Assembly: GCA_001793945.1 (NCBI GenBank)
Contig: MGIW01000001.1
Span: 1-40,557 of the forward strand
Length of the DNA stretch: 40,557 bases
Reading direction: 5' to 3'
Source of the DNA: Candidatus Wolfebacteria bacterium RIFOXYD12_FULL_48_21
Lineage (GTDB): Bacteria > Patescibacteriota > Minisyncoccia > UBA6257 > UBA9933
The position numbers and the translations under genes are program-made. Position 1 is the stretch's first letter, and each line of letters opens with the position of its first letter. This document shows, in pieces, positions 4,771 through 36,597 of this stretch. The notes below the pieces were generated by a model, which ran no database searches, was not told the DNA's origin, and saw only the letters and a program-made list of their open reading frames with translations.

Positions 4771-4888
4771 TGTCATCCCGGACTTGATCCGGGATCCATT
4801 TCCATTTTGCGCGATACGCGCATCTATAATTTTTTATTGTGAGTTTCGCACATAGTTGAAGTGGATACCGGCCTTCGCCGGTATGACA
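4771..4888. repeat. modular palindromic element
   Basis: tgtcatcccggacttgatccgggatcc ... ggataccggccttcgccggtatgaca. Confidence 0.75.
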
Positions 4889-14921: not shown

Positions 14922-15010
14922 TGTCATTCCGAGCCTTTCGAGGAATCTGTTTTTGCAAACTTCAGATCCTTCGGCTCCTCCGCCAGCTGGCGGATGCGCT
15001 CAGGATGACA
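14922..15010. repeat. modular palindromic element
   Basis: tgtcattccgagcctttcgaggaatctg ... cagatccttcggctcctccgccagctggcggatgcgctcaggatgaca. Confidence 0.85.
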
Positions 15011-17550: not shown

Positions 17551-17696
17551 TATCATTCCCGCCTCCGCGAGGATGACACTCAAGTGCATTGTCATTCCCG
17601 TCCTTCGACAAGCTCAGTCCGCCAGCCGGCGGATCCGGCGGGAATCCAGTAGCCATAGGAAAGGGCTCTGGATCCCGTTTTTCAACGGGATGACAA
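17551..17696. repeat. composite palindromic elements
   Basis: tcattcccgcctccgcgaggatgaca; tgtcattcccgtccttcgacaagctcagtccgccagccggcggatccggcgggaatcc; ggatcccgtttttcaacgggatgaca. Confidence 0.75.
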
Positions 17697-33833: not shown

Positions 33834-36050
33834 TTATTCGAGATGCACCCTGTCGTGAAACCGCGCGACAACATCTTTCAGTTGCGGGTGTTCCGCAAGA
33901 TCGGGATCCTTTTCCAGCACACTCTCTGCGGCCTCACGCGCACTCTTTACCAGTTTTAAGTCCTGCAGCGAACGCATTGCCAGATCGGGCAACCCCGTTT
34001 GCGATTGGCCCATAAACTCCCCGGGGCCGCGCAAGGCAAGGTCCTTTTCCGCAAGCTCAAACCCGTTCTTCGCGTGCACCAACGCCTCGAGCCTGTCCTT
34101 TGTCGGCTGCGCCGATGAATCGGTAAACAGCAGGCAAAACGATTGATGCTCCCCTCTTCCTACGCGCCCTTTGAACTGGTACAACTGCGCGAGGCCAAAC
34201 CGATCCGCCCCTTCAATCATCATGATCGTCGCATTGGGAATATCCACACCAACCTCGATTACCGAGGTTGCCACCAATACATCAATCTCGCCTTTTTTCA
34301 TTTTTTTCATAACCTCCGCTTTTTCTTCCGATTTTAACTTCCCGTGCAACATCGCGACGCGCATATCGGGAAATATCTTTTTCGATAGCTTGTCGTATTC
34401 TTCCTTGACCGTTTTTGTATCCACCGCAAACCATCCGCCAGTTGGCGGACTTCCTTTTGTTTCATCCTCTTCGGTTTTTTCTATGCGCGGACAGATAACA
34501 AACACCTGCCTGCCCTTTTTTACCTGTCCGCGTATGAAAGCATACGCATCCGTGCGGCTTGCGGGCGGCACTATTTTGGTAATGATGTCCTTGCGCCCCT
34601 TGGGTAGCTCACCAATGATCGATACATCCAGATCGCCGAACAGTGTCAATGAAAGCGTACGCGGAATGGGCGTGGCGGACATGGACAAAAAGTGCGGCAA
34701 CAGCCCACCATCCCTTTTCCCCTTCGACAAGCTCAGGGCTTTAGTGTGCCCTGCGAGCGCCTGACGTTGCTTTACGCCAAACCGATGCTGCTCGTCTATG
34801 ACCACCAATGCAAGATCGCTAAACACTACGCCTTTTTGTATCAGCGCATGCGTACCTATGGCTATTTTTATCTCTCCGGTCGCCAGTTTTTTTACCGCAT
34901 CCGCCTTTTTCATCTCGCTTTCCAGCCCCTCCCCAAAAAATACCTTCGCACCCGAAGCGGTCAACAGCACCACCCCTTTCTCGAAGTTTCCAAATATTTT
35001 TTTGAATGTATGGTAATGTTGCGTGGCCAATATTTCTGTCGGCGCCATGAATGAGGCTTGTCTGCCCGCATCCGCTGCAATGATCGCCGCCAGTACCGCG
35101 ACGATCGTCTTTCCCGACCCTACATCGCCCTGCAACAAACGATTCATCGGGTGCGGACGCGCAAGGTCGCCGCTAACCTCCCGCATGACCTCCTGCTGCG
35201 CATCGGTCAACTCGAACGGCAGCTGTGCAAGCAATTCCGCAAATCTCGATCCTTCCGCAACGCACGCATATGCGTTTTCCTTCGCGAGTCGCGATCGCTC
35301 AAGTATGTTTACCAACTGCAAATAAAAAATATCCTCAAACGCAAATCTGCGGCGAGCACGCAGTACATCCTTCATGATTTCCGGATAGTGAATCAAACGC
35401 AATGCATCGTTCAGCTCCGTGACATCGGCGCGCTTCAACATTTCCTCCGGCAATGTTTCGGGGATATATTCCAGCCCATCCAAAAGCGGCTTTATCAAAA
35501 ACCGCAGTCCTTTCGAAGTCACGCCTTTTGTTTCCGGGTAGATCGGCACCAATCGTCCCGTATGTTTACACGCTTCTATTTCTTCCCGATATTCCGCCGC
35601 ATCTTCCATAAATTGCTCATCATCTTCCGAAAAGCCAACAATCTCGTATGAAGGGTGTGAAAATCCTATTCCTGCCTTCCCTAAGCTCACCTTCCCCGCA
35701 AGATTAATGACCATGCCTTTTTTAAGCATTGCCACAAGAAACTTCTGATTGAACCATGTTGCCCGCACGCTTCCCGTTGCATCTACCACGGTCGCCTGAA
35801 TGATAAACATCTTTTTCCTGAAAGACCGTAGTATTTTAATCTCCTGTATAACTCCTTGAATTGTAGCTGCCTCTCCCGGGACAAGATCTACGATGTTTGC
35901 TATCTTTGAAAAGTCTTCGTATCGGGACGGAAAATGCCACAATAGGTCTCGGACCGTTTTTAGCCCCAACTTTTCCAATCGCAGCGCAAATGCCGGCCCC
36001 ACGCCTTTTACATATCGCAATTCAGTTTCCAACCGAATATCCGTGGTCAT
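33834..36050 (-). CDS. recG: ATP-dependent DNA helicase RecG with two short in-frame repeat-derived insertions
   Basis: LLQGDVGSGKTIVA, VIDEQHRFGVKQRQ, SMSATPIPRTL, QFKGRVGRG. Confidence 0.95.
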   Translation of the reverse strand: MTTDIRLETELRYVKGVGPAFALRLEKLGLKTVRDLLWHFPSRYEDFSKIANIVDLVPGEAATIQGVIQEIKILRSFRKKMFIIQATVVDATGSVRATWFNQKFLVAMLKKGMVINLAGKVSLGKAGIGFSHPSYEIVGFSEDDEQFMEDAAEYREEIEACKHTGRLVPIYPETKGVTSKGLRFLIKPLLDGLEYIPETLPEEMLKRADVTELNDALRLIHYPEIMKDVLRARRRFAFEDIFYLQLVNILERSRLAKENAYACVAEGSRFAELLAQLPFELTDAQQEVMREVSGDLARPHPMNRLLQGDVGSGKTIVAVLAAIIAADAGRQASFMAPTEILATQHYHTFKKIFGNFEKGVVLLTASGAKVFFGEGLESEMKKADAVKKLATGEIKIAIGTHALIQKGVVFSDLALVVIDEQHRFGVKQRQALAGHTKALSLSKGKRDGGLLPHFLSMSATPIPRTLSLTLFGDLDVSIIGELPKGRKDIITKIVPPASRTDAYAFIRGQVKKGRQVFVICPRIEKTEEDETKGSPPTGGWFAVDTKTVKEEYDKLSKKIFPDMRVAMLHGKLKSEEKAEVMKKMKKGEIDVLVATSVIEVGVDIPNATIMMIEGADRFGLAQLYQFKGRVGRGEHQSFCLLFTDSSAQPTKDRLEALVHAKNGFELAEKDLALRGPGEFMGQSQTGLPDLAMRSLQDLKLVKSAREAAESVLEKDPDLAEHPQLKDVVARFHDRVHLE
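34434..34449. repeat. TCCGCCAGTTGGCGGA core inside recG
   Basis: same near-palindromic 16-mer as in many intergenic elements; encodes ..GSPPTGGW.. Confidence 0.7.
34721..34738. repeat. CCTTCGACAAGCTCAGGG unit inside recG
   Basis: encodes ALSLSKG on minus strand; same unit at ~17602-17617. Confidence 0.7.
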
Positions 36051-36306: not shown

Positions 36307-36597
36307 TTACCATGATCTCAGCGATGGCAGCATCCTGCCCCTTCGATTGCGATCGCTTACTTTGATGTATGCGGTGCTTTGCCCATCGTCATTGATACCG
36401 TCATGTGGAGTAGCGTGAGCCACGGGCGTAGCGTGAGCCACGGGCGTAGCGTGAGCCACGGGCGTAGCCGCCACCGTCTCCGGTATTTTTACCTGCATAT
36501 ATATATAGGCAATCAAAAACAATAGCAAAGCGCAACCCATCATTATATGTATACCGATGGGTGTCTCCCTTTCCGGTTTTTCCTGTTTTGAAGCCAC
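36307..36597 (-). CDS. small single-TM hypothetical protein with (AHATPV)n repeat
   Basis: GTG start preceded by AAAGGAGG; the longer track ORF would run through a tRNA and its terminator. Confidence 0.6.
   Translation of the reverse strand: MASKQEKPERETPIGIHIMMGCALLLFLIAYIYMQVKIPETVAATPVAHATPVAHATPVAHATPHDGINDDGQSTAYIKVSDRNRRGRMLPSLRSW
36410..36467 (-). repeat. 18-bp tandem repeat, ~3 units
   Basis: gtagcgtgagccacgggc x3 encoding AHATPV. Confidence 0.9.

Follow-up and report, generated by a model that had tools for sequence, protein, structure and literature searches.

The window, by which we mean the whole stretch of 40,557 nucleotides analysed here, encodes an intact RecG helicase whose identity is supported by two family models and by its wedge, DEAD and Helicase_C domains, with the helicase motifs GDVGSGKT, DEQH, SATPIPRT and QFKGRVGRG all present. 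Within this gene lie two short modules, M2 at site 1 and M1 at site 2 (Table 1), which are read in frame as TKALSLSKGKRDGG and KGSPPTGGW, respectively. A first-pass annotation had reported two repeat-derived strings in frame in this 738-aa protein; both were found at the positions given there, and only their coding-strand readings had to be corrected, to the forms listed in Table 1. The M1 copy in recG folds as a 6-bp hairpin (z -4.3), and the folding of M2 alone was no better than that of shuffled sequence. An 18-nt tandem repeat was also observed upstream of the recG start, within a small minus-strand ORF.

Table 1. Positions of recG, its two modules and related repeats in the window.
Feature	Position	Strand	Description
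recG	33834..36050	minus	ATP-dependent DNA helicase, 738 aa, intact; NCBIfam NF008168 2.4e-239, TIGR00643 above cut-off
Site 2, module M1	34434..34449	minus	16-nt palindrome TCCGCCAGTTGGCGGA; coding strand TCCGCCAACTGGCGGA, read as SPPTGG
Site 1, module M2	34720..34738	minus	plus strand CCCTTCGACAAGCTCAGGG; coding strand CCCTGAGCTTGTCGAAGGG, read as ALSLSKG
Tandem repeat	36407-36468		18-nt unit GGCGTAGCGTGAGCCACG
Intergenic M1 copy	14979..14994		nested in CCTTCGGCTCC...GCGCTCAGG element
Further M1-type copies	starts 3195, 4057, 9476, 13097, 16330, 16384, 17618, 24562, 25140, 27410, 28421, 30524, 30579		
Intergenic REP	17588..17650		loop with nested M2 and M1; same REP with short loop in G003 by pairwise alignment
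TGTC-type REP, example	4771..4801	plus	TGTC, 8-bp stem ATCCCGGA, 5-nt loop, CCA tail

Both inserts are missing from the RecG of three congeners of the source genome (G000; 879 kb, from a small-genome lineage), namely its sibling G003, whose RecG is the nearest at about 92% protein identity, and G001 and G002, as well as from the further family members compared. At site 1 the source protein reads ALSLSKGKRDGG against KG--------SGE in relatives, and at site 2 GSPPTGGW against GK----SW. The codon alignment with G003 gives the empty alleles directly. Site 1 is ACT AAA GGA AGC GGG GAA CTG in G003 and ACT AAA GCC CTG AGC TTG TCG AAG GGG AAA AGG GAT GGT GGG CTG in G000, a net gain of 24 nt made up of the 19-nt M2 and 5 nt more, while AAA GGA AAG AGT TGG at site 2 corresponds to AAA GGA AGT CCG CCA ACT GGC GGA TGG, a net gain of 12 nt in which the 16-nt M1 palindrome came with the loss of about 4 nt. 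The proposal that both stretches are lineage-specific insertions is thus borne out by the RecG alignment, and among the proteins compared there was no homologue in which both stretches are matched by equally long conserved residues.

One insert precedes SATPIPRT and the other lies in the acidic stretch after ICPRIE. Since both sites vary in length within the family and are gapped against the solved RecG structures 1gm5 and 9wm0, the inserts are probably located in surface loops. Comparison with G003 (dN 0.038, dS 0.71; dN/dS about 0.05) indicates purifying selection on recG, and the two branches, with 7 and 8 amino-acid changes, are of about equal length. Together with the intact helicase motifs, these values suggest that the modules are tolerated as protein tags, as had been supposed.

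The 16-mer M1 has 23 matches in the window against 0.28 expected from shuffles. The genome is also rich in palindromes of the form TGTC-ATTCCCGC-(4-6 nt)-GCGGGAAT-CCA; 11 such TGTC-type REPs were counted in the window and none in five shuffles of it. The search required the tag and a stem of at least 8 bp starting with AT, with neither a loop of up to 6 nt nor a CCA tail required. In the stretches sampled from G000 (about 705 kb) and G003 (504 kb), to which the in-gene counts below also refer, it returned 190 and 253 REPs, respectively, whereas 60 kb of G001 yielded 2 and 100 kb of G002 yielded 7. The loop was nevertheless at most 6 nt long in 155 of the 190 G000 elements, and 120 of them carried the CCA tail. 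Counts of TCCGCCAGYNGGCGGA were likewise 52/42 in G000, 33/25 in G003, 2/1 in G002 and 0/0 in G001, so that copy number goes with lineage. The intergenic elements of the window fit the published definition of CGTC-type REPs (PMC3733652), which asks for a CGTC, TGTC or CCTC tag, an AT-starting stem of 8-9 bp, a loop of 4-5 nt and an unpaired tail that is mostly CCA. The recG inserts comprise TCCGCC..GGCGGA and CCCTGAGC..GAAGGG, with neither tag nor tail, and are modules rather than whole REPs. Their description as sub-modules of the intergenic elements holds, M2 and M1 being nested in a single element of the window (Table 1, intergenic REP).

Three matches to the M2 18-mer with at most 3 mismatches were found in the window (0.04 expected from shuffles), and the exact 17-mer occurs in only three copies in the G000 genome. 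M2 was nevertheless present in 137 of 380 genomes of the phylum, against 0 of 380 for a reversed-pattern control, and the matches listed across many bacterial phyla include Sphingomonas, Microbacterium, Bacteroidetes and Chloroflexi among others. Amongst the all-bacteria loci, M2 is depleted in long ORFs, with 38 of 159 copies (24%) well inside them compared with 79% of random positions, and it is read in all five stop-free frames, as PELVEG, LSLSKG, FDKLR, PSTSSG and LRQAQG. This depletion and spread of frames agree with insertion at any position and later purging that spared in-frame copies. With its wide distribution, M2 is a REP-like module of about 19-24 nt.

M1 also occupies the loop in a number of the TGTC-form palindromes, and where the sibling lacks an M1 site it often retains the outer stem with a different loop, a pattern of loop exchange. 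For example, TGTCATTCTGA[TCCGCCAGCCGGCGGA]TTCAGAATCT corresponds to TGTCATTCTGA[ACTTGT]TTCAGAATCT, with an identical outer stem. Counterparts with equal flanks and a different loop were found for 23 M1 sites, the outer stem being at least 5 bp in 22 of them; about a dozen of these counterparts are anchored by synteny in the G000/G003 alignment, and for some of the 23 the counterpart may be a paralogous REP, not the orthologous site. Flank pairing of at least 5 bp was observed at 46% of M1 sites, compared with 20% after re-pairing the flanks between sites. Terminator-like hairpins take part as well, as in G003 AACCGTACGTCCG[TCCGCCAGTTGGCGGA]CGGACGTACGGTTTTT versus G000 AACCGTACGCCTTGGGCGTACGGTTTTT. 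Terminator-like hairpins with an M1 loop in G003 and a short loop in the sister genome can be seen at G003:C1:220233, G003:C1:189840 and G003:C3:127297. In the CGTC/TGTC-type REP palindromes, M1 is thus one loop module that can be interchanged with others. The suggestion that the modules move independently of the full element is upheld as far as their occurrence goes, single copies being found in coding genes, terminator-like loops and REP loops; movement itself is what we infer from presence and absence between species.

Module tagging is not peculiar to recG. A scan of 398 G000/G003 orthologue pairs (95,122 aa) for well-flanked indels of at least 3 aa yielded 32, and about eight of these, in recognised genes, are M1 or M2, seven in G000 and one in G003. 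Besides the two modules of recG, the tagged genes of G000 encode a ribulose-phosphate epimerase (Ribul_P_3_epim, K[SASGRR]W), a superoxide dismutase (Sod_Fe, [LALSNPEPVEG]), a GSDH-like protein ([LSSAEGFTPSEVEGLI]), ParA at its C-terminus ([LRQAQGDST]) and ParB ([LRQAQDMA]), and ParA is the tagged protein in G003 ([FDSAQDMA]). Apparent whole REPs were also observed in frame in a 1440-aa lamin-tail-domain protein (L079:14432-18751), with an ordinary loop (SDEILKQVQDDN) and, in one case, an M1 loop (SDEILIRQSADQDDN).

RecG was found tagged in other lineages of the order too. A third loop of the protein, following motif I, bears a PFD(Y/A/R)AQG(E/K) tag in four family members, G011, G010, G017 and G007, each from a different genus and all tagged at a single codon boundary; at the corresponding loci (L025, L026, L030 and L275) the module is CCCTTCGACNNNGCTCAGGGT in three and a decayed form in the fourth. 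Because the carriers are scattered on the RecG tree and G020, a close congener of G011, is without the tag, about three insertions are suggested. Three of the four modules are identical at their synonymous sites, whereas in the rest of the gene about half of the synonymous sites differ. The RecG of G044, from another family, carries M1 at site 1 followed by a second, M1-like palindrome, and in seven relatives (L274-L278, L280 and L281; G020, G007, G021, G018, G057, G045 and G047) the site 1 loop holds an in-frame inserted domain of about 140 aa, which was PDDEXK_3 (PF13366) in both of those tested (E 6e-34 and 2e-23). An M1 match in the RecG of L033 was rejected as chance, as it coincides with the conserved FGVRQRAE codons, and the match in L282 was set aside, there being no insertion at that place. 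The mfd gene was tried as a control and discarded, its model being above cut-off in no genome and mostly matching RecG.

Taken together, these observations indicate that both recG stretches are orphan short palindromic repeat modules, inserted after the split from the sibling and kept in frame in tolerant loops, a reading to which we assign a probability of roughly 0.82. The modules would spread as non-autonomous mobile hairpins, most likely in the form of single-stranded or cruciform DNA by which hairpin tips are replaced or extended through template switching or break repair; the rare landings in genes would survive only in frame and in flexible loops, and the tags would be near-neutral passengers. 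The pattern of loop exchange indicates hairpin-dependent template switching or tip repair. For the two recG insertions themselves, no convincing hairpin was seen at either target site in the empty allele, so that loop replacement of the kind observed outside genes may not apply to them and plain insertion with a small deletion may be a second route. A MITE-like route would leave terminal inverted repeats with TA ends and a target-site duplication; in 185 M2 copies no consistent duplication was found other than an ACGG context in common, and an apparent duplication signal at fixed offset proved to be an artefact of that context, which is common to several loci. Direct repeats of at least 6 nt numbered 11 against about 3.3 expected, a figure that includes tandem and consensus cases. 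Direct repeats of three bases fit around several of the coding insertions, but as the boundaries there can be adjusted, no claim is made for them.

Other explanations have to be weighed against insertion of orphan modules. Local slippage or ordinary divergence of linkers, with a repeat match arising by chance, might be entertained given that both recG sites vary in length and that the L033 match shows chance resemblance to occur, but it is contradicted by the match counts: the inserts are identical over their full 16 and 18 nt to genomic repeats for which only 0.04-0.28 window matches are expected, and the reversed control is empty in all 380 genomes, which leaves this explanation scarcely credible. 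Mobilisation in trans by the RAYT (Y1) transposases of these genomes, as proposed for GTAG REPs, is in keeping with the distribution of Y1_Tnp (one in G000, four in G003, two in G002 and none in G001, the congener without TCCGCCAGYNGGCGGA) and with a correlation between M1 and Y1 counts among 121 relatives (Spearman 0.30, p 7e-4, uncorrected for phylogeny). We consider it unlikely, however, as the RAYTs examined are mostly flanked by different palindromes of their own (e.g. ATGTACGTCATCAGATGACGTACAT) rather than by paired copies of M1 or M2. Moreover, of the eight genomes in which M1 reaches 20 copies or more, three gave no Y1 hit, and GTAG occurs in neither module. RAYT-like Y1 transposases with their own palindromes, differing by locus, were noted at G000:C3:175046, G003:C1:301932, G002:C1:103218 and elsewhere.

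The recurrence of tags in RecG could also mean that its loops are preferentially decorated, with the peptide or the hairpin DNA modifying repair or recombination. Six tags were found in 56 RecG proteins against none in 30 GyrA; about 3.6 would be expected in the latter, so that the contrast is weak and the numbers are too few to decide on a preference. Tags are also found in SOD, ParB and other unrelated proteins, their peptide sequence and frame vary, and a hot spot is to be expected at a loop that tolerates a 140-aa domain; a function for the tags therefore appears distinctly improbable. A broader form of the orphan-module reading holds that M1 and M2 are the units of spread, minimal hairpin parasites of 16-24 nt that would exchange tips between palindromes (REPs, terminators and each other) across bacterial phyla with no transposase of their own, and also that RecG, which acts on branched DNA, would be tagged above chance by insertions that reached a shared codon boundary in separate lineages. 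This combination is tentative, being possible but rather doubtful.

Filled and empty sites are now available for modules of 16 and 19 nt, whereas the in-frame repeats usually described are longer, and about a quarter of the larger in-frame indels that distinguish two sister species can be put down to such modules. The exchange of loops on a retained stem, both in orthologous REPs and in terminator-like hairpins, makes the spread of transposase-less REPs testable. When metagenome proteins are annotated, peptides such as LSLSKG, PELVEG, FDKLR and LRQAQG need not be taken for motifs but can be identified as traces left by mobile DNA.

Among known systems, the intergenic elements of the window resemble the CGTC-tagged REPs described by Di Nocera et al. 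(2013; PMC3733652) in their TGTC/CGTC tag, in the 8-bp stem that starts with AT, in the loop of 4-6 nt and in the CCA tail. RPE-4 and RPE-6 of Rickettsia conorii and dRS3 of Neisseria belong to that group. Its members are reported to lack a transposase of their own and to occur within genes as well, often in DNA-repair genes, where a role in repair or recombination has been speculated upon. The recG inserts differ in consisting of just the loop module (M1) or of another module (M2), and in lengthening the protein by a net 4 and 8 residues, compared with the 20-30 encoded by most published inserts; the present host also belongs to a small-genome lineage not found among those named in the text of that survey available to us. 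The Rickettsia RPEs (Ogata et al., 2000, as cited in PMC2229807 and PMC3733652) are palindromic repeats lying in frame in genes of probably functional proteins, several per genome, and in-frame insertion into conserved protein genes is equally seen for the modules here, which are, however, much shorter, modular and found in many phyla; the likeness drawn here is one of insertion pattern. GTAG REPs and RAYT REPtrons are similarly short, many-copy palindromes, and RAYT genes are found in the genus, but the modules lack the GTAG tag, and the RAYT genes examined mostly sit between other palindromes. The GC clusters of yeast (PMC4478555) and the repetitive hairpin elements of sponges (PMC2800124), both in mitochondrial DNA, are short repeated hairpins that spread within a genome; these are organelle genomes, and no sequence relation is claimed. 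Among the papers searched, none prints the M1 or M2 sequences or their tags in such a context. In-frame REPs are thus known already, also in repair genes, and what is new here is the small size of the modules, the orphan loop module, the exchange of loops at orthologous sites and the repeated tagging of RecG.
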